Positions 9,389 to 64,000 of a stretch of 64,000 nt of DNA are shown here, in pieces. Position 1 is the first letter of the stretch. Each line of letters opens with the position of its first letter. The DNA is from Actinomadura sp. DC4 (GTDB lineage Bacteria; Actinomycetota; Actinomycetes; Streptosporangiales; Streptosporangiaceae). The DNA lies in assembly GCF_030406325.1 (NCBI RefSeq), contig NZ_JAUEQY010000001.1:496001-560000 (forward strand), read 5' to 3'. Below the pieces are notes generated by a model. It had not been told where the DNA came from, did no database searches, and saw nothing but the letters and a program-made list of their open reading frames with translations. The translations under genes were made by a program, and so were the position numbers.

Positions 9389-11188
9389 CTAACGCCGGAA
9401 GAGCTCGCGCAGGTTGACCACCAGCAGTACTCCGGCGACCAGGACCATCGGGCCGAGCAGCACGTACCGGCCGCCGTACATCACCGCGAGGGTCAGCCCG
9501 ACCATGACCACCCCCGCGCCGGCGAGCATCAGCAGGCCGGACGCCAGCGCCAGCAGGCGGCGCCGCGCCCAGGCCTCCATCAGGGCGAACAGGAAGACGA
9601 CCGCCGCGAGCAGGATCGCGACCGGTTCGTGTGGCACGACGAAGACGCCGACGAGCGCGAGGATGAACAGCGGCGTGCTCAGCGCCGCCCACGCGTGCAG
9701 GAACCTCGTACGGGAGCCGCGGGTCGGCGTGTACGGCAGGTGCGGCTCGCGCAGGTGCTCCTGGGGCCGCTCGGCGTCGGGCGGCCGGGCGAGCGTCGCC
9801 TCGTGCGCGGCCCGCTCCTCGGCCAGGTCGGTACGCGCGCGGATCAGTGCGGCGAGGTCGCGCTCGGCCCTGGTCACCTCGGCCGAGCGCCGCCGGGCCA
9901 GGCTGCGGGCGTTCTCATGGTGGCCGAGGGAGACGGCCGTCGCGCGCAGCCGTCGCAGCTGTTCACGGTCGCGTTCGATCGTCGTGTCGTTCTCCTCCAG
10001 CTCCTTGTCCAGGAGCGTTATCCGGGCGCGCAGCTCGCGCCGGTCGTCCTCGGCGTCGGGGAGGATCTTCTGCAGGCCGGCCCAGCCGAGCGGGTCGGCC
10101 CAGAGGGTGCGCACGCGCCCGTCGCGGTCATAGCGCGGGCCCGCCGGGGCCCGCTCGCCGCCGACCCAGTCGCGGGTGTCGCGGCCCCACAGCCCGTGGA
10201 AGCCGCTCACCCACGACGTCGCGTCGGAGATCATGACCGGGTGCCACACGCGCGTACGCGCCGGGCCGACCTCCTCGCCGTTGCCCATCGCGTAGTCGAT
10301 GAACGGGATGCCGACGCCGCCGTGGCTCCGCCCCTCGCGCAGCCACGGGAAGGCGAACGCCTTGGCGCGCCGGGTGCCGCGCAGCACGGGCCGCAGGCGC
10401 GCCGGGTTGACGGTGACGAGGTACTGGCCCTTCAGGAACGCCCCGGAGTGCGATCCGGCGCCCACGAAGATCACCGGGTGGTCGCCGTCGACTCGCAGGT
10501 CGGGGTCGTCCCAGCGGCGGCGCAGGTCGTCACCCGCACCGTCGTGCGCGGACACCGCGACCCACGCCGGCCGCAGCCCCTCGGCGGTCTCGGCCAGATA
10601 GACCATGACCGCCTCCCAGTCGGCCTCATGATCGTTGACGCCGCTGAAGGTCGTACGCCAGTCGTTCATGGCGTAGAGGAAGAAGTACTGCAGAATGACG
10701 TAGCCGCCCTCACGAACGACACGTCCGTAATAGGGGCAACGGTCAGGGTCCATCCGGCTCTCGTACAGGCTCGCCGCCGCCGCGGCCACACCGCCGGGAA
10801 CCGAGCCGCGGAGAAACAGCGAGGCGCGGAGCAGCACGTCGAAGACCCGGCCGAACAGGCCGACCGCGGCCAGCCGGCCCGACTTGGCGATGGGCGGCCT
10901 CGCGTGGCCGTACCTCAGGGCCTCCCGGCGGTTGAACGGCTCGTGGACCAGCAGGAGCGACAGCCGCGACTCCGGGTACAGCTCGGCGATCGTGACCAGG
11001 CTGTCGATGGTCAGCTCCCCGGCGGGGACGAGCTGTTCCTCTCCGCGCCACAGGCCGCAGCAGCGTACGTAGGCCTCGACGTCGACCGGGAAGAACCGCT
11101 CGCCGGCGGTGTAGGCGAGGACGGGCTCGTACTGCCGCAGCAGGGCCGTGTCAGGGTCGGGCGGAAGGGTTTCGCCAGGCTCAGTCAC
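9389..11188 (-). CDS. Vps62-like domain protein with coiled coil and C-terminal membrane segments
   Basis: 599 residues, GTG start at 11188 after GGGGGAT. The first about 370 residues resemble Vps62-related proteins: LQYFFLYAMNDWR, then FSGVNDHEADWEAVMVYL, AVSAHDGAGDD and VIFVGAGSHSGAFL, with H, D and W placed as in that family. A charged coiled coil follows (about 400-470, RELRARITLLDKELEEND and onward), then three or four membrane-spanning stretches (about 490-595). It was probably inner-membrane anchored with the large domain cytosolic. No function is established for bacterial members. The gene is convergent with the MBL hydrolase, 46 bases apart. Confidence 0.82.
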   Translation of the reverse strand: MTEPGETLPPDPDTALLRQYEPVLAYTAGERFFPVDVEAYVRCCGLWRGEEQLVPAGELTIDSLVTIAELYPESRLSLLLVHEPFNRREALRYGHARPPIAKSGRLAAVGLFGRVFDVLLRASLFLRGSVPGGVAAAAASLYESRMDPDRCPYYGRVVREGGYVILQYFFLYAMNDWRTTFSGVNDHEADWEAVMVYLAETAEGLRPAWVAVSAHDGAGDDLRRRWDDPDLRVDGDHPVIFVGAGSHSGAFLKGQYLVTVNPARLRPVLRGTRRAKAFAFPWLREGRSHGGVGIPFIDYAMGNGEEVGPARTRVWHPVMISDATSWVSGFHGLWGRDTRDWVGGERAPAGPRYDRDGRVRTLWADPLGWAGLQKILPDAEDDRRELRARITLLDKELEENDTTIERDREQLRRLRATAVSLGHHENARSLARRRSAEVTRAERDLAALIRARTDLAEERAAHEATLARPPDAERPQEHLREPHLPYTPTRGSRTRFLHAWAALSTPLFILALVGVFVVPHEPVAILLAAVVFLFALMEAWARRRLLALASGLLMLAGAGVVMVGLTLAVMYGGRYVLLGPMVLVAGVLLVVNLRELFRR

Positions 11189-53694: not shown

Positions 53695-55169
53695 AGGTCA
53701 GTGTCATCGTGCCCGTGTACAACACGGGCGAGGACCTGACGCAGTGTGTCGAATCGGTGCTCGCGCAGACGATGGACGAGTTCGAGGTGATCTTCGCCGA
53801 CGACGGGTCGAGCGACGGCACCGAGAAGCGCCTGGACGAGCTCGAGACCGAGCACGACCGCGTCCGCGTGCTGCACCTGCCGCCGAGCGGGGGCCCGGGC
53901 GGCCCGCGCAACGCCGGCATCGAGGCCGCGCGCGGCGAGTTCGTCTACTTCCTGGACGACGACGACTGGCTGGGCACCGAGGCGCTGGAGCGCATGCACG
54001 CCATGGCGCTGCGCAACGACTCCGACATCGTCATCGGCAAGATGGTCGGGCACGGCCGCCGGGTGCCGCGGCTGATGTTCCGCGAGTCGCGCGACCGCGC
54101 CGACGTCCTGGACGACGCGCTGTGCGGCATCCTCACGCCCCACAAGATGTTCCGGCGTTCGTTCCTGAACGAGCACGAGATCCGCTTCCCCGAGGGACCG
54201 GTACGGCTGGAGGACCACCGCTTCGTCCTCCGGGCCTACTTCCGCGCCCGTACGATCTCGGTGGTCGGCGACTACGCGTGCTGCCACTGGATGAAGCGGC
54301 CCGGCAGCTACTCCCGCAACCTCCCCGACCCGGTGCACTACCACGACATGCTCCGCGAGGTGCTGGACATCGTCGACGAGCACGTCGAGCCGGGCCCCGT
54401 ACGTGACCGCTACTACGCGCACTGGTACCGCGGGAAGATCCTCAAGCGGCTCGGCGAGGGCGGTCTCGTGGACGCCCCGCCCGACTACCGCGACTCCAAC
54501 TACGCCGAGGCGCTGCGGCTCACGAACGAGCGCATCGGCCCGGGCGTCGACGAGTGGCTGCCGGTACGCCTGCGGGTGCGCTCGGCGCTGCTGCGCGCCG
54601 ACGCGCGCGAGGACCTGTTCCGCCTGCTGACGGCCGAGCGCGGCACCGCGGTCGACGCCGTGCTGGACGAGGCGCGGTGGCGCGGCGACCGGCTGGCCGT
54701 ACGGTTCACGGCGCGCTTCACCTACGACGACGACACGCCGGTGACGTTCGTCGAGGACCGCTGGAAGCCGCCGGTGCCGGTCGACGTGCCGGCCGACCTG
54801 CTGGCCGTCGACGACCGCCCGTGGCGGCTGGACCTCTACATCCGCCGGCGCTCGGACAACGCCGACTTCCCGCTGGCGATCACCGCCGAGCACTGGGAGA
54901 GCGGCACGATGACCGGCGAGGCCGTGCTCGACGTGGACGAGGTGCCCGGCCTGACCGAGGGCACCTGGGACCTCATCGGCCGCATCGATGGGGGCGGCTG
55001 GACGTACGAGCGGCGGCTCCGTGGATACGACCACGACCTGCCCGCCCGCGGACGAGTGGAGCCGTACCGGACGATCAACGACAACCTGAGCATCCGCATC
55101 CGCGGCGCCGCGGCATCGCCCCGGAAGAACACGCTACGGCGCACGGTCCGCTGGCTGCGCCGACGGTAG
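53691..55169 (+). CDS. Family 2 glycosyltransferase with C-terminal beta-sandwich tail
   Basis: 492 residues. GT-A fold: VSVIVPVYNTGEDLTQCVES, FADDGSSDGTEKRL, and the metal-binding Asp run FLDDDDW (about 88), then LEDHRFVLRAYF as base region. The C-terminal about 170 residues are beta-rich (LAVRFTARFTYDDDTPVTFVE), resembling the tails of teichoic-acid glycosyltransferases (TarS type), and a basic end (RRTVRWLRRR). It probably decorates a cell-wall polymer or glycolipid. GTG 53691 overlaps the Nudix stop by 4 bases. Confidence 0.9.
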   Translation: MKVSVIVPVYNTGEDLTQCVESVLAQTMDEFEVIFADDGSSDGTEKRLDELETEHDRVRVLHLPPSGGPGGPRNAGIEAARGEFVYFLDDDDWLGTEALERMHAMALRNDSDIVIGKMVGHGRRVPRLMFRESRDRADVLDDALCGILTPHKMFRRSFLNEHEIRFPEGPVRLEDHRFVLRAYFRARTISVVGDYACCHWMKRPGSYSRNLPDPVHYHDMLREVLDIVDEHVEPGPVRDRYYAHWYRGKILKRLGEGGLVDAPPDYRDSNYAEALRLTNERIGPGVDEWLPVRLRVRSALLRADAREDLFRLLTAERGTAVDAVLDEARWRGDRLAVRFTARFTYDDDTPVTFVEDRWKPPVPVDVPADLLAVDDRPWRLDLYIRRRSDNADFPLAITAEHWESGTMTGEAVLDVDEVPGLTEGTWDLIGRIDGGGWTYERRLRGYDHDLPARGRVEPYRTINDNLSIRIRGAAASPRKNTLRRTVRWLRRR

Positions 55170-55195
55170 TTGATCTACAACGTAAAGGCGGCGGC

Positions 55196-57316
55196 TCAGG
55201 GGTGGGGAGGCTGCTCGCGGTCCTTCCCGTGATCTCCCGTGGGAGCGCCCCGCTCTCCGCCGGGTGGAACCTGCTGCTCCGGGGGCGCGCTCTTCGCCGG
55301 CTCCTGCTGTGTCTGCCGTACGGGCGATGCCGGCGGCCGATGAGGGTCGGCAGCGGGCTGGCCCGATCGCAGGAAGAACACGACGATCGCTATGACGGCG
55401 GTCACGACCAACGTGATCGGGACCAGGGCCAGCGGCGGGATCGCCGACCGATGCCGGGCACGGTAGCGCCGGCTCGATTCGGTGAGCCGATCGATCCAGC
55501 GGGACCCGCGCGGAGCCGAGACGGACCCGAAGGACCGGGGCGGGGACAGGGAGCGGCCGGTCGGGCCGTTCTCGACGTCGGTGGACCGCAGCAATGCCTG
55601 TATCTGCTTGCGCCGGTCGCGGGAGAGCCCGGATGACGTCGCCATCGCCTTGGCGATCGCCGGTACGACCCGATCTCCGGCACCGTGACCGTACTGGAGT
55701 ACCGCCGCCGCGAACAGCGGCTGGCAGGAGAGCACCGCCGGATGGCCGATGACCTCTTCGAACTGGTCGTCTGAGCGCACGGACCGGTACGCGGCGGTCA
55801 GGAGGCCGTGGAAGCAGTCGAGCTGACGGTCGCCCTGCTCGGTGAGCAGGCAGACGGCGCGTGCCAGATAGTCGTGTTCCTCCAGTGCGCGGGCGATCAT
55901 GGGGGCCTCGGCTTCGTCGTCGGCGCTCCGTCTGCCGATCTCGCGGCAGGCGATCCGTACGACCCGTTCGTCGTACGGCTCTCGGGCGGCGTTCGCGATC
56001 AGGCCTTCGCTCGGCACCTTCTCCAGGATCTTGTAGGAGTGTTCCTGGGCGTACGACGCCATGATCATGTTGGTGAGCACGCAGTCCGGCGGAATGAGTC
56101 TCATCGCGTTGAACAACTGCGGCGTCATGCCGCCCGCGTCGCGCAGGATCTCGTCGATGACCTCGGGTGTCAGTAAGGGTCCGTAACCCGTTCGCAGCAC
56201 GGCGTCCTGGAGCTGCGAACGGAGCTGTGGGTCGAGTTCGGGCCGCTCACGGTACAGGTTGCGCTTCCTGATGACCCCCAGGCTTCGCGCGCGCTCCTCC
56301 GGCTCGAGCCGTTCGGCGATCTCCCCGAGCTCGTGTACGAACTCGGGGAGATCGGAGGCCGGCCGCGGCCGGTCGAGACGGTCGGCGATGGCACTGAGGA
56401 GCTCCTCGGGGGTGGGGAGCTCCGTCGGTCGGGGAGGCTCCAGGGCAGGGGGTCGGCGAGTGCCTCGTGCGCCGCACAGGTTGTCGAGAAGATCCAACGC
56501 GTGCAGACAGTCCCTCATCTCCTTGAACGAGAGGGGCTCGGTGTCTCTCGCCAGCCCGGCTATGAGCTCTGCCTTGTCCGGATGGCCGTCCAGGAGAGAG
56601 TAGTAACGCGCGGCGATGCCGTCCCAGGGAGCCGACGAAGGCTCCGTCCACGAGACGACGCCGGCGTCGTCTCGCGCGTGCCGGGAGAAAGAGAGCCGGA
56701 TGCGATGGGCCGTCGCACTGCTGGTCCAGGTCGAGGCACTGAACTTGGCGCGCAAGCCGTACGGCAGCAGTGCCGCCACCGTGTCGAGGAATCGCAGGCG
56801 TTCCGGCAGGCTCAGGCTCTCTCCCTGCACGACGCACACGTTCTTGCCGGTCAGTAGCAGCGCAGCGGCGCGCATGGCCCGGCCGTCGACCCTCCCCGCG
56901 AGGTCGGGGGCGTTCAGCGGAGGCACGGAGAGGGACAGGATCCCGTCCGACGGGAGCCGCCGAGGGTGGAACGCGTCGTACAGCGCCCCGTACGTGACCG
57001 CGCTTTCGCACAACTGACGGTAGGGAACGCAGAAATAGCGCGTCTCGGCGATCTGCCGTCGCCAGCGGTCGACCTGCCCGGACAGGTCCTGTATCGCGAG
57101 GCCGAGGTGGGCGTGGTGACCTTCGCGGACCCAGCTGATCGTCACCTGAGGGAACGTCTCCGGCGATCCGGAGCCGAAGTGAGAGATGATCTCGGCGAAG
57201 AGGTCGCGGTCGAACATCCCCGTGCTGTTGTCGAGGACTGCGTAGTCCTCCAGCCCTCCGGGCGGCTTGGCCCACAGAGCCCACTCCGCCGTGATCCGCG
57301 TCGTACCGTCTTTCAT
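55196..57316 (-). CDS. GTPase-associated protein 1 (GAP1)-like membrane-anchored protein
   Basis: 706 residues. The N-terminus (TAEWALWAKPPGGLEDYAVL, FGSGSPETFPQVTISWV) matches the N-terminal domain of GTPase-associated protein 1 families; a helical middle region (about 300-570) is followed by one membrane segment near 627-650 (PLALVPITLVVTAVIAIVVFF) and a Pro/Glu-rich tail. It is cytosolic with a C-terminal anchor. It overlaps the P-loop gene by 4 bases (ATGA, start 57316), so GAP1-type and GTPase are made as a pair. ATG 57316 with GGGGGCAAACG ribosome site. Confidence 0.8.
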   Translation of the reverse strand: MKDGTTRITAEWALWAKPPGGLEDYAVLDNSTGMFDRDLFAEIISHFGSGSPETFPQVTISWVREGHHAHLGLAIQDLSGQVDRWRRQIAETRYFCVPYRQLCESAVTYGALYDAFHPRRLPSDGILSLSVPPLNAPDLAGRVDGRAMRAAALLLTGKNVCVVQGESLSLPERLRFLDTVAALLPYGLRAKFSASTWTSSATAHRIRLSFSRHARDDAGVVSWTEPSSAPWDGIAARYYSLLDGHPDKAELIAGLARDTEPLSFKEMRDCLHALDLLDNLCGARGTRRPPALEPPRPTELPTPEELLSAIADRLDRPRPASDLPEFVHELGEIAERLEPEERARSLGVIRKRNLYRERPELDPQLRSQLQDAVLRTGYGPLLTPEVIDEILRDAGGMTPQLFNAMRLIPPDCVLTNMIMASYAQEHSYKILEKVPSEGLIANAAREPYDERVVRIACREIGRRSADDEAEAPMIARALEEHDYLARAVCLLTEQGDRQLDCFHGLLTAAYRSVRSDDQFEEVIGHPAVLSCQPLFAAAVLQYGHGAGDRVVPAIAKAMATSSGLSRDRRKQIQALLRSTDVENGPTGRSLSPPRSFGSVSAPRGSRWIDRLTESSRRYRARHRSAIPPLALVPITLVVTAVIAIVVFFLRSGQPAADPHRPPASPVRQTQQEPAKSAPPEQQVPPGGERGAPTGDHGKDREQPPHP

Positions 57317-58311
57317 CGTTTGCCCCCGTGGCCGACAGGCATCCGCGCGGCCAGGCATTCGGCCAGCCACGTCATCGGCTCCATGACATTGATCGGATGG
57401 ACCTGACCACGGATACGAAAGGGCTCTGGCTGGCCTTTCGCCACCGTGGCCGACGAGTCGGGGATCAGGTTCTGCGGGTCGTCCGGGTCGAAGACGCTGG
57501 TCCGCTTGTCCACGTGGAAGCCGATGGAGGAGGTGACGAAGTACCTCGTGCGCTCCGGATGAAAGTCGCGGTCGAGTGCCTGCATCACCATCTCGGCGTT
57601 TCCCGTCGGAGAGATGTCGCATAGCTCCCGGAAGAGTTCCATCGCGTCGCCGTCGTCCACCCGGGGGAACTCGTACCGGTCGTGCGGGTCGGACGTGACC
57701 AGACCGAGCTTCTCCGCCGTGTGCAGGACCCGCATCTCGTCGAACTTGGTGACGCAGACGGCCAAGTGGTGCGGCAGCTTGCCGCCTTGGAGCCCGCCGC
57801 TGGCGCGCATGCGCTGGCGCAGCCGGGCGAGGGTTCCGTGCAGTGAGCTGAAGGCGTCGCCGCTCTCGAACTCTCGTATCGGGTCGAAGAGGAACACGAT
57901 GCCCTGGCTGTTCGTCAGGTTGTCGAGCAGTTCCTCCTGCAGTCCGGCGTACGCTCCGTTCAATGCGAAGGCGCCACCCGGCGGGTCGAGCAGTTCGAGG
58001 CCGATCTGGAGCGTGTCCTTGGACGGCCCGCGCCACCGCCTGCGACGGTCGGCGCCACCCTGCCGGATCAGGAACCAGTGGTAGCGGTCGATCGTCTGGG
58101 TTGCCGGGAAGAACTTACGTTCCTGCGACAGCGAGTCGGTCGCCCGAACGAGGAAGTCGGTCGAAGCGTCGTCGGCTCCGACGATGCTCCACTCGCTGTC
58201 GCGACGGGTGAGAGCGATGTCCAGAGCGGTGATGAAGGTCGTCTTCCCACTGGCCGGCGCGCCCCACATGGCGATGTTGTGCTTCGGCGGCGGTTGCTGG
58301 TCGGGACTCAT
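57313..58311 (-). CDS. Small GTPase-like P-loop protein of the GAP1 cassette
   Basis: 332 residues. Walker A GAPASGKTTF (residues 17-26), Walker B region LELLDPPGG (about 107-115) and a nucleotide-specificity motif VCVTKFDE (about 183-190) identify a TRAFAC-like GTPase rather than an ATPase. The rest (RWRGPSKDTLQIGLELLD; LFDPIREFESGD) fits the GTPase partner in GAP1 systems. It overlaps its downstream partner by 4 bases and follows the vWA-like gene by 27 bases, so it sits in the middle of the three-gene unit. Confidence 0.82.
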   Translation of the reverse strand: MSPDQQPPPKHNIAMWGAPASGKTTFITALDIALTRRDSEWSIVGADDASTDFLVRATDSLSQERKFFPATQTIDRYHWFLIRQGGADRRRRWRGPSKDTLQIGLELLDPPGGAFALNGAYAGLQEELLDNLTNSQGIVFLFDPIREFESGDAFSSLHGTLARLRQRMRASGGLQGGKLPHHLAVCVTKFDEMRVLHTAEKLGLVTSDPHDRYEFPRVDDGDAMELFRELCDISPTGNAEMVMQALDRDFHPERTRYFVTSSIGFHVDKRTSVFDPDDPQNLIPDSSATVAKGQPEPFRIRGQVHPINVMEPMTWLAECLAARMPVGHGGKR

Positions 58312-58338
58312 GGTCTCTTTTCTGGGGGAGCGCGGCGT

Positions 58339-59727
58339 TCATCGCTGCGCTACGGACAAGGGGAAGGGGGCCCGGCCGCTCGGTGGCATGGTCAGGCCGA
58401 GATCGGCGGTGAGCCGACGGACGTCGACGGCGTCGAGGTCGGCGGGCGCGCCGTCGCCGAGATGGTGCCAGGACCGGTGCGCGGGCCGGCCGCAGACGGC
58501 GCCGAGCCGCACCCCGCGCGCCCTCAGGCGGCGCAGGCTCGACTCCCAGTCGTGCCGGTGGGGACAGGGGAGGATCTCGGACGGATGCGCACGGGGCGGA
58601 TGCGCCGGCCGGTCGCCGAGGACGAGGAGGGCGGTGTCGCCGGTGCCCCGCGCCCGGTCGAGCCGCTGAACCACCTCGGCGAGCATGTCCTCCAGCTGGG
58701 CGGCGTGGCGGTACCCCTCGTCGGTGACGGGCCGCCCTTCGAGCCTGGTCAGCGACTTGAGGGCCGACGCCGGGGAGTCTGCCCAGCAGACCACCTGGAC
58801 CGGCTCGTCGGGAACGGACCAGTCATAGGAGTGAGCTCCGTAGGCGAGGAGGGACACCTGAAGGTGCTCGGGCGACTCGGCGGACACTGCGTCGATTACT
58901 TGCCGGATCCGGCCGAGTCGTTCCCCGACGACCGTTTCAGTCCCGTTGGTCTCGGCCGCGCAGATCAGATGTGCCGGTCCGGCAGGAGGAGAGAGCTCGG
59001 GCGGCACGAGCGCCGCGATGTCGGCCCAGTCGCGTGTGTCCCGGGCAAGGCCCGGAAGACCGGTCAACCGCACTCGTCCCGGCCGTTCCAACTCCGCCGT
59101 GATCTCATAGCCGCCGGGCACCAGCTTGGCGACGTCGATCGAGAGCGGTCGTGGTCCACGGCCGCCCCAGGTCACCACCGCGAACGCCGTGCCCCGGTCG
59201 TCGCTGGGCGCGCATCGCACGGTCAGGACGGCCGTCTCGCCACGGCGCGCGCCGATGGAGAAGAGTGGCTCGCAGCCGAGTTCGAGCCGCCCGGTCCCGG
59301 TGTTCTGCTTAAGGACGACCAGGTCGTACGCCTGGTGGAGAGGCTCCTGTTCGACGATCTCGCGCAATAAGACGTCGACCTCCAGATCCGTGCAGGTGAA
59401 GGCCTGTGCCGCAGGGTGGGCGGTCCGTAGCCACTCCATGGCCCGCTCGGTGTGGGACGCCGAATGAGAGCAGACGAGGGCCACGGTGGAGTCGGGCGCG
59501 CCGCGCGCCGCACGTTGGACCGAGTCGGCGGACAGCGCTTCGTCGGTCGCCCACCGCAGCGCCCGGCGCCCCCGGCCGCGCGTCGTTCCGAGCTCGTCCC
59601 GGTGGAGCTCGAACACCGTGATTCCGTCCACGCCCACGTCCGCGACGGACAATCGCCTGGCACCGGCCAGGTCGGTGACCGACTCGGTGAGAGCCTTGCG
59701 CAGGAATTCCTCGCCAGGATCGCTCAT
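58339..59727 (-). CDS. vWA-like protein without a canonical MIDAS, first gene of the cassette
   Basis: 462 residues from ATG 59727 (GGGGGCCTAT before it). The second half (about 245-370; AHLICAAETNG, QVSLLAYGAHSYDW, VVCWADSPASALKSL, DTALLVLGDRPAHPP) has the order of a von Willebrand factor A fold, but the DxSxS MIDAS motif is AAETNGTE, so it probably does not bind divalent metal by the usual way. The N-terminal half (RKALTESVTDLAGARRL) is beta-rich and unrecognised. Position first in an operon with a GTPase fits a scaffold or sensor role. Confidence 0.7.
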   Translation of the reverse strand: MSDPGEEFLRKALTESVTDLAGARRLSVADVGVDGITVFELHRDELGTTRGRGRRALRWATDEALSADSVQRAARGAPDSTVALVCSHSASHTERAMEWLRTAHPAAQAFTCTDLEVDVLLREIVEQEPLHQAYDLVVLKQNTGTGRLELGCEPLFSIGARRGETAVLTVRCAPSDDRGTAFAVVTWGGRGPRPLSIDVAKLVPGGYEITAELERPGRVRLTGLPGLARDTRDWADIAALVPPELSPPAGPAHLICAAETNGTETVVGERLGRIRQVIDAVSAESPEHLQVSLLAYGAHSYDWSVPDEPVQVVCWADSPASALKSLTRLEGRPVTDEGYRHAAQLEDMLAEVVQRLDRARGTGDTALLVLGDRPAHPPRAHPSEILPCPHRHDWESSLRRLRARGVRLGAVCGRPAHRSWHHLGDGAPADLDAVDVRRLTADLGLTMPPSGRAPFPLSVAQR

Positions 59728-59973
59728 ATAGGCCCCCGTAATGCGTGCATGGTCGACGTTCAGGTGCGCACTTCTTGACGTGAGTCCGGCCACCCCGCGA
59801 AGGCCGTACGGAGAAGTACTGGCACAAGTGTTCTGCGGAATCCTGCATAAATTGAACGGGTATGACCGCATGTGGCCAAAAGGGGACTTAGTGTATTGAG
59901 GTCGGTTGCCAGCCTTTAACGGGAACTGGTGTTATTTACATGATCGGGGGATATTTTTAGAGGGGATAATATA
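59728..59973. promoter_or_regulatory. Divergent promoter region of the five-gene cassette
   Basis: 246 bases separate the two arms of the cassette. The part nearest the DUF4407 gene (59880-59973) is much less GC-rich than the rest of the window, with TTGCCA at 59906 and TGTTAT at 59930 as a possible -35/-10 pair (18-base spacer, weak match). The plus-strand leader is rich in A and T up to the ribosome site AGAGGGG. No palindromic operator is obvious. Confidence 0.35.
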
Positions 59974-61338
59974 GTGAGAAAGCTGCTGACCGCTTTGTCC
60001 GGGGCACGGCCCGAGGTGCTCGATCGGTGCCCGAGCGAGCAGGGGAAGTTCGAGGGTATCGGGGGTGCGGTACTCACGACCTGCGTGCTGGCCGTCGTGT
60101 CGATGACCTTCGCGCTGCACAGCGCGCTCGGCGTGTCTCTGCTGTTCGCCATCCCGGCGAGCCTCGTCTGGGGGCTGGCCATAATGAGCTTGGACCGATG
60201 GCTGGTCGGAAGTATCCAGGCCGACGACGCGCGCCGTTGGAAAATGGCGATCCCGCGCATCCTCATGGCGGTTCTTATCGGCTTTGTCATCTCGACTCCA
60301 CTCGTCTTGCGGATCTTCAAGTCCGAGATTGATGTCCAGATTGCCCAAATTAAACAGACTCGTTCCGATACATTCGCAAATGAGCAGAAAAGGGGGGCGG
60401 TGGGGCAGGAGGTCACCCGACTCGGTGAGTCGGTGGCCGGCTTGGAGAAGGTGATCGCCTCTGGCGGTGACGTCCCGCTCGACCCGGCCAAGGACCCTAA
60501 GATCCAGGCATTGACGGCCGAGCGAGACGCGCAGCAGCTTCAAGCGGCGAAGCTCTACAAGGATTGGCAATGCCAGCTGTACGGCGGCACGAAGTGCCGG
60601 AAGGGCGACGGGGTTCTCGCCAGGGCCAGCAAGTCCGCCTACGATAAGGCGAACGGCCAGGTCAACGGGCTTAACCGTCAGATCGGGGAGCGCCGCCGCC
60701 AGCTGACCGCCACTGACGATAAGGCGAAGCAGGCACGGCTGGCCAGTGCGAGGGACGATCTCCCCGGCGTCAAGGTGCAGCTCAAGGAGGCGACCGACCG
60801 GCAGAGCGCTCTGCGCAAGTCGTTCGACGCGGAGAACGACACCACCGACGGGCTGCTGATCCGGCTGCAGGCGCTCAACGAGGTCTCCGGTAAGGACTTC
60901 ACGCTCCGGCTGGCGCACATCCTGCTGTTCCTGCTGTTCCTGCTGATCGAATGCCTGCCCGTCACGGTCAAGCTGCTCCAGAAACCGGGCAACTACGAGA
61001 AGATCTACAAGCTCACGGTGAGGGAGGAGTACCGCGCCGCCCGCGACCGGCTCGGTCCTCAGGGGTCGGCGCAGCCCGGGGCTGGATCGCTGTACGACAT
61101 CTGGGCGGGATCGGTGCCGGACGCGGATCCGGCGTCCGGCCATACCGCGCCCCTGCCGCCCGACGACGAGGTGGCCCCGGCCAGGAGCGATGAGGACTGG
61201 CCTGCCGGCCACCCCTCGTTCGAACACGAGGCGCTGCGGGACATGCCCGACACCCGGATCATCGCTCGTGAGCCCGGGACGCACGCGAAGGCCGGTGAGC
61301 GGCCGGAGGAGTTCGAGCTGTTTCCCGGCGACGACTGA
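59974..61338 (+). CDS. DUF4407 domain membrane protein
   Basis: 454 residues. Two membrane segments close together near the N-terminus (about 33-73), a third (about 92-112), a long cytosolic coiled-coil region (about 115-300; AQIKQTRSDTFANEQ, GESVAGLEKV) and a fourth segment (about 310-332) followed by an acidic tail: DUF4407 architecture. GTG 59974 follows AGAGGGG. The first third uses AT-ending codons far more than any other gene here. It forms a two-gene unit with the kinase 8 bases downstream, in the outward arm of the cassette. Function unknown; a membrane platform is likely. Confidence 0.88.
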   Translation: MRKLLTALSGARPEVLDRCPSEQGKFEGIGGAVLTTCVLAVVSMTFALHSALGVSLLFAIPASLVWGLAIMSLDRWLVGSIQADDARRWKMAIPRILMAVLIGFVISTPLVLRIFKSEIDVQIAQIKQTRSDTFANEQKRGAVGQEVTRLGESVAGLEKVIASGGDVPLDPAKDPKIQALTAERDAQQLQAAKLYKDWQCQLYGGTKCRKGDGVLARASKSAYDKANGQVNGLNRQIGERRRQLTATDDKAKQARLASARDDLPGVKVQLKEATDRQSALRKSFDAENDTTDGLLIRLQALNEVSGKDFTLRLAHILLFLLFLLIECLPVTVKLLQKPGNYEKIYKLTVREEYRAARDRLGPQGSAQPGAGSLYDIWAGSVPDADPASGHTAPLPPDDEVAPARSDEDWPAGHPSFEHEALRDMPDTRIIAREPGTHAKAGERPEEFELFPGDD

Positions 61339-61346
61339 ACCACGGC

Positions 61347-62900
61347 ATGCGCGGAGAGACGGGCCGTCTGATCCACGGTCGCTACCGGATCTCGTCCCGG
61401 CTCGGCCGGGGAGGGATGGGCAATGTCTGGCTGGCCCAGGACGAGCGCATCGGGCGGCCGGTCGCTCTCAAGGAGATCCTGCTGACGCCGGATGGCGAGG
61501 ACCTGTCCGTACAGCTGGAGCGGGCGAAACGGGAGGCGCACGCGGCTGCGACCATCGACCATCCCGGCATCGTCGAGATCCATGACTTCTTCCTGGAGGA
61601 GGAAGAGCAGCAGCCGTGGATCGTGATGGAGTACATCAAGGGCCGTACGCTCGCCGACCTGATCGCGGAACGGGCCCTCACGGAGCGCGCGCTCGCCCGG
61701 ATCGGCGTGCACATCCTGGACGCCTTGGTCGCCGTGCACGACCGGAACGTCGTACACCGCGACGTCAAGCCCACGAACATCGTGATCAACGAGGCGGGTG
61801 AGGTGTTCCTGGTCGACTTCGGCATCGCCCACCTCGGCGGACGGACCCGCCTCACCGGGGCACTCGTCGGCACGGCCGACTTCCTTTCACCCGAGCGTGT
61901 CAGGAACGGGACGCCGGGGCCACCGGCCGACCTGTGGTCCCTGGGGATCACCTTCTTCACCGCACTGGAGAGACGCTCGCCGTTCCACCGCGCGAACATC
62001 CCGGCGACCCTGTACGCGATCCTCAACGAGGACCCGCCTCCGGCCGGCCGGCCGGGGCCTTTCGCCGATGCCGTCGCTCTCCTGCTGCACAAGGATCCCG
62101 AGCGAAGGATGGTCGCCGCCGAGCTCGCGCCGGTCCTCGGCTCGATCGTGACCGGCCGGACCTCGCCGACCACCTCGAAGGACGTGCCGGCCGCCCCTCA
62201 TCCGGCCGTTCCACGCCCGGCCTCGCCGAGACCGGCCAGGCGGGGGCGACCAGAGGCCACAACGCCGCGGACAGACGAGACGGTGCGTCAGGCCGCGGGC
62301 GCGACGGTGGCCGACGACGCGTGGCAGCTTGCGGGTGTCTCCCCGCAGTCGGCACGCGACGCGCTGGCCCGCATGAGGCCGAAGCCGGCGGCGCGAATGC
62401 TGCTGGCGCTGCCGGAGGATCGAGCCGCCGCCGTCCTGGCGGTCACGCCGTCCCGCGCGGCCGGCTCTCTGCTGGACGAGCTCGCAGCCGTACCGGTCCG
62501 GGCCGCCTCGATCCTGGCCATGCTGTCGGCCACTCTGGCCGGACGAGCCTTGAATTACGCCCGGCGGCCGGCGCCCGCCACGCTGATCGCCGCCATGCCT
62601 CCGGCGGAGGGCGCGCGGATCATGGCTCGCACCGACATCCACACCGCGGCGGGCGTCATCACCGATCTGAACGATCCTTCGGCGGCCTGCCGCCTCGTGG
62701 ACGTGCTCCCCGTGGCCCAGGCAGGGAACATTCTTGGATACGTGGAGCCGGCCGCGATCGCCGCGCTGCTTCGGGAGGGCACCGCCACCCGTGCCGAACA
62801 CCTGCTCCGCGCCCTTCCCCACTCGGCGCGAGCGCAGGTTCGCCGGCGGCTGTCGGAGGACGCTCCCGCCGGCGACGAAGATCCCTCCCGCCGGTCATAG
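61347..62900 (+). CDS. Ser/Thr protein kinase with MgtE-N-like helical-repeat tail
   Basis: 517 residues, cytosolic. A Hanks-type kinase domain (about 10-275): Gly-loop LGRGGMGNVW (17-26), VALKEI with Lys about 40, HRDVKPTN (137-144), DFGIAHL (157-163), GTADFLSPE. A Pro-rich linker follows, then about 200 residues of alpha-helical repeats (ARDALARMRPKPAARMLLAL, ILAMLSATLAGRALNYA) resembling the MgtE N-terminal superhelix, without CBS or membrane parts. This tail probably binds a partner. It is directly downstream of DUF4407 (8 bases), so it likely phosphorylates or is held by that membrane protein. Confidence 0.9.
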   Translation: MRGETGRLIHGRYRISSRLGRGGMGNVWLAQDERIGRPVALKEILLTPDGEDLSVQLERAKREAHAAATIDHPGIVEIHDFFLEEEEQQPWIVMEYIKGRTLADLIAERALTERALARIGVHILDALVAVHDRNVVHRDVKPTNIVINEAGEVFLVDFGIAHLGGRTRLTGALVGTADFLSPERVRNGTPGPPADLWSLGITFFTALERRSPFHRANIPATLYAILNEDPPPAGRPGPFADAVALLLHKDPERRMVAAELAPVLGSIVTGRTSPTTSKDVPAAPHPAVPRPASPRPARRGRPEATTPRTDETVRQAAGATVADDAWQLAGVSPQSARDALARMRPKPAARMLLALPEDRAAAVLAVTPSRAAGSLLDELAAVPVRAASILAMLSATLAGRALNYARRPAPATLIAAMPPAEGARIMARTDIHTAAGVITDLNDPSAACRLVDVLPVAQAGNILGYVEPAAIAALLREGTATRAEHLLRALPHSARAQVRRRLSEDAPAGDEDPSRRS

Positions 62901-63149
62901 CGCGCGCAGCGCACGCGAGGCGTCCGGGAACGGCTCCCACGTCTGCGCGAGGGGCGTGGACCTCCCGGCGCCCGGCCGGGCCGAGACGGTCGCCTGCAGC
63001 CGCCAGGGCTTCGCGCTGTTCTCGCAGGTCGTCGGCTGTGGCGCACGTCACGAGGTCCGCGTAAACGGGTGCCGTCGGCGTCGCCTGCCCAGCACGGGGA
63101 GCGGCGCCGCGTCGGTTTCGCCGGGGCGGCGGCGCGCGGCCGCCAGATA
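62901..63149. other. Non-coding tail of the decayed exonuclease region
   Basis: About 250 bases between the kinase stop and the exonuclease remnant. No convincing gene or start. On the minus strand, segments such as APVYADLVTCATADDLREQ and EALAAAGDRLGPAG look like former coding sequence, probably the C-terminal extension of the same exonuclease gene, but the reading is broken. Nothing else recognised. Confidence 0.4.
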
Positions 63150-63623
63150 GCGGCGCAGCGGTTCGGCCGCAGCCCCGGCGTCGGCATCGCGATGTGCGCA
63201 TCATGGGCGGGATCCCCTCGGCGCGCAGTCCGCCGACCGCAGGGAGCCGGCCGTACGCCCGTGGCGCCGGGCGAGTCCGAGCGTGCACAGCGACAGCAGG
63301 TCGTCGGCGGCGGCGCCGGTCCGCCGGAACTCGGCGGTCAGCATGCCGGTGTCGAACATCGCATTGTGCGGGACGATCACGGCGCCGTCGATCGCGCGGG
63401 TGATCTCCCCGAAAAGGGGCAGTCCGCACAGGTGAGGCGTGGAAGCACGTCGGGCCGGAGCCCTGGTCGCTCTGCAGGAACGTGTGGAAAACGCCCCGGG
63501 GCCGTGCCGTCCGGGTCGAGGCGGACGACGACGATCTCGATGACGCGGTCGCGGAACAGGGTCGAGCCCGGTGGTCTCGGTGTCGATCACGGCGTACGGG
63601 AGTCCGTCGATGCGGTACCGCCG
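63150..63623 (-). pseudogene. DnaQ-type DEDDh exonuclease pseudogene with frameshifts
   Basis: On the minus strand the DEDDh motif YAVIDTETTGLD (start about 63623) leads into RDRVIEIVVVRLDPDGTAPG, then VFHTFLQSDQGSGPT, then HLCGLPLFGEITRAIDG, VIVPHNAMFDTGMLTAEF and LLSLCTLGLARRHG, the Exo I, II and III-type segments of a DnaQ-like 3'-5' exonuclease. But these stretches are in different frames, with shifts near 63567, 63500 and 63435, and the final AHDA motif (about 63190) is in yet another. The gene cannot give a full-length protein. The first bases overlap the 3' end of the helicase gene. Confidence 0.82.
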
Positions 63624-64000
63624 GCGACCCGCGGTACCCGGGTGGGCGTCCGCCTCCGGGCCGCGGCGACGAGGCCGGGCAGGGCCTCCCAGGCGGCCGG
63701 GACGTCGATCCTGCGCGCGGCGTACGCGGTGGTGAGGAGGTCCTCGCCGAGGTACTCGTCGTACTTGTCGAGTTCCTTGTCCAGTACGGGCGCGGCCAGC
63801 TTCCGGGGGTCGGGCGGCGGGGCCGCGGCGAGCTCGTCCAGCAGCTCCACGGCACGCTCCGGGCTCGTCTGAGGCAGCCGCAGCGCGAGACTCTCCTTCT
63901 CATAGCGGACGCCGCGCAGTGCGAGGGCCAGGCCGAGCGCGGCCATCACGGCGTCGCCGCGGAACGGGAAGACGTAGGTGTCATCGCCCCAGCCGACGAC
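63587..64000 (-). CDS. DEAD/DEAH-box helicase, C-terminal part (runs off window edge)
   Basis: The last 137 residues of a protein encoded on the minus strand whose start lies beyond 64000. It begins VVGWGDDTYVFPFRGDAVM and continues ALGLALALRGVRYEKESLAL, with LDKELDKYDEYLGEDLLTTA then WEALPGLVAAARRR near the end. This VFPWRGDR-type strand and the EDLLTAAYAARRLD helix are found in the C-terminal region of large Lhr/Ski2-like helicases of actinobacteria. The final about 25 residues (RTPTRVPRVAGG) look like an extension into the overlapping decayed exonuclease gene. Confidence 0.6.
   Translation of the reverse strand, partial: VVGWGDDTYVFPFRGDAVMAALGLALALRGVRYEKESLALRLPQTSPERAVELLDELAAAPPPDPRKLAAPVLDKELDKYDEYLGEDLLTTAYAARRIDVPAAWEALPGLVAAARRRTPTRVPRVAGGTASTDSRTP

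Follow-up and report, generated by a model that had tools for sequence, protein, structure and literature searches.

Within a window of 64,000 nucleotides from Actinomadura sp. DC4 (contig NZ_JAUEQY010000001.1, positions 496,001 to 560,000 of the forward strand; coordinates below count from the first letter of this stretch), we describe a unit of five intact genes at 55196-62900. It brings together a GTPase related to the DO-GTPases, a GAP1-like partner, a two-part adaptor, a DUF4407 membrane protein and a Ser/Thr kinase (Table 1). The anatomy of this unit is near certain. What does the unit do? We propose that it forms a membrane-associated, chaperone-sensing alarm module built on the GTPase and the kinase, most likely a conflict (anti-phage) system, and we consider the case for this proposal about evenly balanced.

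The minus-strand arm is transcribed in the order adaptor, GTPase, GAP1-like gene. The divergent plus-strand arm carries the DUF4407 gene and, starting 8 bp past its end, the kinase gene. The 246-bp gap between the arms was searched for a conserved operator, and none was found. A mechanically called open reading frame of 946 amino acids for the GAP1-like gene was replaced by one of 706 amino acids (55196-57316), the most likely form. The ATG of this form and the stop of the GTPase gene overlap by 4 bp, and the GAP1-like gene appears to be translationally coupled to that of the GTPase. For the adaptor, the most likely start is 59727, giving 462 amino acids. A sequence-only reading of the window had named the products as a GTPase, a GAP1-like protein, a vWA-like protein, a DUF4407 protein and a kinase, in a membrane setting. 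Each of the five lies at the coordinates it gave, the identities it assigned are supported, and membrane helices are predicted in both the GAP1-like and the DUF4407 proteins.

Conservation of the five-gene unit

A search of 151 genomes from the same family detected homologs of the GTPase in 44, distributed over 19 of 68 genera. When 40 loci around such homologs were fetched, 35 contained all five genes together, divergent as in the window. Elsewhere, the unit is incomplete at two loci cut by contig ends (L039 and L062), the DUF4407 gene lies ~5 kb off and the kinase was not found at a third (L070), and the GTPase is the only one of the five at two more (L060 and L064). No broadly shared flanking gene family surrounds the fetched loci. 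Because the gene order is kept while the flanks vary, we take the unit to consist of these five genes. Reciprocal searches show the same linkage: homologs of the vWA-like protein adjoin the GTPase in 43 of 45 cases, as do 38 of the best 40 DUF4407 homologs, with weaker DUF4407 paralogs located elsewhere. The remaining two of the 40 belong to a genome (G085) in which the contig that carries the cassette starts at the vWA gene (L039). The sequence-only reading had allowed that its genes might fail to co-occur in other genomes; they clearly do co-occur.

A second sample comprised 80 GTPase loci from named genomes, partly overlapping with those of the first set and including Streptosporangium, Microbispora, Microtetraspora, Herbidospora, Sphaerisporangium, Actinomadura, Nonomuraea, Acrocarpospora, Frankia, Nocardia and others. 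The complete set of five occurs at 52 of these loci; 10 are without the kinase, 8 consist of GTPase-GAP1-vWA and 5 of GTPase-GAP1. These counts of partial loci suggest a GTPase-GAP1 core to which vWA, DUF4407 and then the kinase were added stepwise. Over the 35 complete fetched loci, pairwise distances are correlated between the five proteins (r 0.82-0.93), which shows co-inheritance of a kind indistinguishable from common vertical descent. The unit recurs in many actinobacteria of soil and, in the searches made, is confined to mostly mycelial actinobacteria. With the GTPase as query, plasmid sequences gave a single 30% match and phage sequences none, and a contig scan using a single GAP1 protein returned no matches.

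Several fetched loci carry a tandem duplication of GAP1. Two others hold disrupted cassettes: ~1.3 kb lies between the GTPase and vWA genes of L058 (10568-11896), and the GTPase of L063 is split over two frames (9485-10520). At L093 and L099, which are GTPase-GAP1-vWA loci, the kinase carries a fused PQQ-type beta-propeller in place of MgtE_N.

The encoded proteins

The sequence-only reading had related the GTPase to GTPase-GAP1 partnerships proposed as conflict systems. This is upheld by hhalign, which aligns the GTPase with canonical DO-GTPases, the kind described by Kaur et al. 2020, at 99.7% (E 2.7e-26). The DO-GTPase2 profile (PF19993) matches 30 of 31 orthologs (best 4.6e-8), the window copy falling under the cut-off. 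The G1, G3, G4 and G5 motifs are retained across orthologs, and the Walker B motif reads DxxGG in the window copy and most orthologs, DxxGE in a few. For its partner, the GAP1-M profile (PF20014) matches 19 of 35 orthologs, below threshold, and in the orthologs inspected these matches fall at the canonical position, residues ~155-247. The window protein has no Pfam match, and GAP1-N1 and GAP1-N2 were not detected in the GAP1-like proteins with Pfam profiles. Profile comparison with two canonical GAP1s was uninformative; with a larger canonical set, the match is collinear but weak. Most copies possess a C-terminal hydrophobic helix by hydropathy. We take the partner to be a probable GAP1, highly divergent and with a membrane helix at its C-terminus.

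The adaptor was modeled in full by AlphaFold2 with a predicted local distance difference test score (pLDDT) of 91. Residues 246-447 superpose in VIA on the vWA domain of CMG2 (Z 19.5, 2.2 A over 164 amino acids). The DxSxS motif of the metal-ion-dependent adhesion site (MIDAS), typical of vWA domains but not universal, is present in none of 30 orthologs. The label "vWA-like protein" in the sequence-only reading is right as to this fold and incomplete as to the whole, half of which is Hsp70-like by fold. Folded alone (pLDDT 93), that half returns only Hsp70s as top matches in Foldseek (DnaK, E 8.3e-7), and in the best alignments residues 9-233 correspond to about residues 175-530 of Hsp70, that is, lobe II and the beta-sandwich of the substrate-binding domain (SBD-beta). 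In VIA it reaches Z values up to 8.7 (7b7z_B) with a large root-mean-square deviation that reflects a different setting of the two domains; the sandwich alone gives Z 8.2 (3.0 A over 93 amino acids) to BiP (5e84_A). These Z values exceed what common arrangements give by a moderate margin only. Every match row is an Hsp70 and both domains come in order, which in these models favors the Hsp70 likeness. A single lobe of ~130 residues precedes the sandwich, and a complete two-lobe Hsp70 ATPase domain is absent; as modeled, the adaptor is Hsp70-like without being an Hsp70.

The DUF4407 protein scores 264.7 bits against PF14362, for which the curated cut-off is 31.3. A loop of ~200 residues (116-315) carries a strongly conserved cysteine pair, C200/C208, and the tail contains a conserved LRxMxDTR motif. 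Given an N-terminus inside the cell, the loop would lie outside and the tail inside. In the literature searched, mentions of DUF4407 are scarce and brief, and further work on GAP1 systems was not found. At five loci (L153, L155, L156, L163 and L164), a DUF4407 gene without the cassette adjoins a recurrent small protein family starting MGQINVV. The kinase keeps its VALK-type lysine, HRD catalytic aspartate and DFG in 26 of 26 aligned orthologs, with HCD in place of HRD in L056. Its C-terminal arm matches MgtE_N in all 26 and FliG_M in 17.

Related systems and genomic setting

DO-GTPase-GAP1 systems were described by Kaur et al. 2020 (eLife 9:e52696, PMC7159879) and proposed to be conflict systems. 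Three GAP1-N2 themes are laid out in the main text of that paper, from which the following comparisons are drawn: tubulin, Hsp70-GrpE, and kinase-PP2C-vWA. With the kinase theme, the unit shares a DO-GTPase-type GTPase whose gene is overlapped at its end by a GAP1-like one, a (here probable) GAP1 ending in a transmembrane helix, a membrane setting, occurrence in actinobacteria, a vWA protein (here by its predicted fold) and a kinase with apparently intact catalytic motifs. How far does the likeness extend? The GAP1-N2 systems described there possess an FNIII component, a GAP1-N2 region and, in the kinase theme, an adjacent PP2C, whereas here the five proteins contain neither FNIII matches nor PP2C, no conserved sixth gene or flanking family accompanies them, and GAP1-N2 is not detected by profile. 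Unlike those systems, the unit has one GTPase without zinc ribbons, and the Walker B glutamate of canonical DO-GTPases is mostly glycine. It has in addition DUF4407, the MgtE_N kinase arm and the Hsp70-like/vWA fusion; neither DUF4407 nor MgtE is mentioned in that main text. The kinship seen by the sequence-only reading holds, although several of the GAP1-N2 features tested differ. The unit is clearly related to the DO-GTPase-GAP1 systems, and we place it beside them, as a sister branch, and not strictly among their members.

The Hsp70-GrpE theme also combines a GTPase and a GAP1 with an Hsp70-type component. Two canonical GAP1-N2 systems with Hsp70 occur elsewhere in the same genome (L166 and L167; G000:C88 and G000:C45). 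These encode full Hsp70s and canonical GAP1-N2, whereas the adaptor has one lobe and a sandwich fused to vWA, and GrpE is lacking.

The notion of a membrane signaling complex that includes a kinase and/or a GTPase also links the unit to Streptomyces conservons and to vWA-kinase-PP2C triads of the TerY-P type. Their PP2C, roadblock, DUF742 and histidine-kinase-like proteins have no counterpart among the five proteins by Pfam. A PADLOC scan of the five genes identified no known system; it returned marginal P-loop matches and generic kinase-domain matches, and the latter were rejected as a defense identity. A larger variant was observed in Actinomadura, Actinokineospora and Nocardia (L230, L233, L235, L236 and L245; similar at L223, L232, L242 and L243). 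It comprises radical-SAM (Fer4_12), coiled-coil and double-AAA proteins, a zinc-ribbon vWA protein, a GTPase and GAP1, together with an actin/Hsp70-like protein recognized by its N-terminal motif (no Pfam match) and, in most cases, DUF4407.

Five congeners (G136, G286, G092, G287 and G116) are without the unit at the corresponding site: their sequence resembles the window to 54.8-55.1 kb and then, within 0.1-1.2 kb, matches 69.3 kb. From this empty site we infer an insertion of ~14.2 kb in the present genome, which carries the five-gene unit, three Shango genes on the minus strand and a fragment resembling an exonuclease. The fragment, a short piece at 63204-63590 (minus strand; RNase_T/DEDDh, PDC-S48 match), lies between cassette and Shango, and its frame is apparently broken. 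PADLOC recognizes a complete Shango operon (SngC 1.9e-276, SngB 7.5e-174, SngA 4.6e-78) that spans 63587 to ~69133 (L248:687-6233), reaching past the window end, with DEAD, BrxC_BrxD and TerB_N/TerB/TerB_C domains by Pfam. Shango was found to be anti-phage by experiment in Pseudomonas (PMC10250203). Its proteins are a TerB protein, a BrxC/D-like ATPase and a DEAD helicase, to which none of the five is related.

The G+C content at third codon positions (GC3) is 0.844-0.862 in the five genes, compared with 0.945 +/- 0.018 (minimum 0.912) in 20 other genes of the window. Because this composition is atypical while that of the Shango genes (0.92-0.95) is native-like, the two modules probably reached the site they share in separate events. 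No tRNA was found at the island ends, and a simple scan found no direct repeat of at least 9 bases between the two junction stretches.

Table 1. Features of the five-gene unit and its surroundings in the window
Feature	Coordinates	Strand	Basis or detail
GAP1-like protein, 706 aa	55196..57316	-	Predicted membrane helix at residues 631-649, near the C-terminus (hydropathy)
DO-GTPase-like GTPase, 332 aa	57313..58311	-	hhalign to canonical DO-GTPases; G1/G3/G4/G5 motifs
Adaptor, 462 aa: Hsp70-like half and MIDAS-less vWA domain	58339..59727	-	AlphaFold2 pLDDT 91; fold searches
Adaptor residues 1-245: RNase-H/actin-type lobe and beta-sandwich, like Hsp70 lobe II and SBD-beta	58993..59727	-	Foldseek, VIA
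Adaptor residues 246-447: vWA fold without DxSxS	58387..58992	-	VIA match to CMG2 vWA
Divergent intergenic region, 246 bp	59728..59973		Between both arms
DUF4407 membrane protein, 454 aa, four predicted transmembrane helices	59974..61338	+	PF14362, E 1.4e-78
Ser/Thr kinase, 517 aa, C-terminal MgtE_N/FliG-like helical arm	61347..62900	+	PF00069, E 6.8e-46; PF03448 (MgtE_N), E 1.3e-11
Window part of the 14.2-kb strain-specific insertion (~55.1 to 69.3 kb, remainder outside the window)	55113..64000		Empty site in five congeners
SngC 3' part (Shango operon), neighbor outside the five-gene unit	63587..64000	-	PADLOC; Pfam

A proposed conflict role and its rivals

Why favor a conflict role? We do so on account of the kinship with proposed conflict systems, the patchy occurrence among genomes and the nearby Shango genes; the strain-specific insertion shared with a complete Shango operon is circumstantial support. 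The wider proposal of one alarm module also draws on the kept gene order and linkage, the correlated distances, the retained GTPase motifs and kinase residues, the predicted membrane helices, the adaptor folds, the empty site in five congeners and the atypical GC3. In the mechanism we propose, the adaptor would bind an exposed peptide or a misfolded or foreign protein through its SBD-like sandwich and contact the GTPase-GAP1 pair through its vWA domain. Binding would alter the GTP state of the switch that GTPase and GAP1 form at the membrane, GAP1 being the presumed anchor, and this switch would act on a complex of DUF4407 and the kinase. The kinase may dock through its arm on the cytoplasmic side of DUF4407, whose outer cysteine-paired loop is a possible second sensor, and could phosphorylate DUF4407 (LRxMxDTR tail) and/or GAP1, altering the membrane state or spreading the alarm. 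The output would then be signaling or membrane-directed, not nucleolytic. A narrower version, which we hold to be doubtful, is a proteostasis-guard circuit with an immune or danger-sensing purpose, in which an ATPase-less, Hsp70-derived peptide-binding module with vWA reports foreign or misfolded protein to GTPase-GAP1, which in turn gates DUF4407 and the kinase.

Several observations weigh against this reading. In the five proteins, the Pfam scan revealed neither a toxin or nuclease nor any other effector; that no nuclease or toxin is evident had already been stated in the sequence-only reading. The GAP1 assignment is weak by profile. The Hsp70 likeness is one of fold alone, because sequence-profile comparison of the adaptor half with real Hsp70s gives no support. 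Among 38 genomes tested, Shango adjoins the cassette only in this one; where other cassette genomes have SngB-like genes, these lie apart from the cassette. Finally, the composition of the unit is strongly conserved across genera and less variable than that of typical effector-swapping conflict systems, which also suits a stress or developmental pathway.

The main rival is a role in envelope or proteotoxic stress signaling rather than immunity, to which we assign a lower but substantial probability, about that of one chance in three. The cysteine-paired outer loop of DUF4407 would sense the envelope or redox state and the Hsp70-like adaptor unfolded protein, and in these hyphal actinobacteria the kinase and GTPase would tune growth, sporulation or the cell wall. 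This is consistent with a composition that is constant across genera, with the apparent retention of kinase catalytic residues and GTPase motifs, with the Hsp70-like fold and with the conserved outer cysteine pair; DO-GTPase proteins also occur in some phage shock protein (PSP) envelope-stress operons (PMC11237479). However, by the GTPase search only 44 of the 151 family genomes have the GTPase, five congeners are without the unit at the site, GC3 is atypical and Shango is a neighbor; together these form a mobile, dispensable pattern.

Less probable still is a developmental or kin-recognition switch, in which a membrane GTPase complex would tune differentiation in a role like that of the Streptomyces conservons. 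The presence of such a putative complex in mostly mycelial actinobacteria fits this idea, but no roadblock, DUF742 or histidine-kinase-like partner is found among the five proteins, and by the GTPase search many related mycelial genomes are without the unit. A chance neighborhood of unrelated genes is ruled out for practical purposes by 35 of 40 loci in matching order amid changing flanks and by the reciprocal linkage (43 of 45 and 38 of 40).

Whichever role it serves, this compact, portable five-gene unit appears to tie together genetically three modes of signaling, namely phosphorylation, GTP state and chaperone-type peptide binding. It also supplies the uncharacterized DUF4407 family with partners that recur and with a role open to testing. 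If the unit does act in phage defense, it would provide direct evidence for a proposal that is so far computational, namely that multicellular bacteria use GTPase-GAP1 modules as immune switches.

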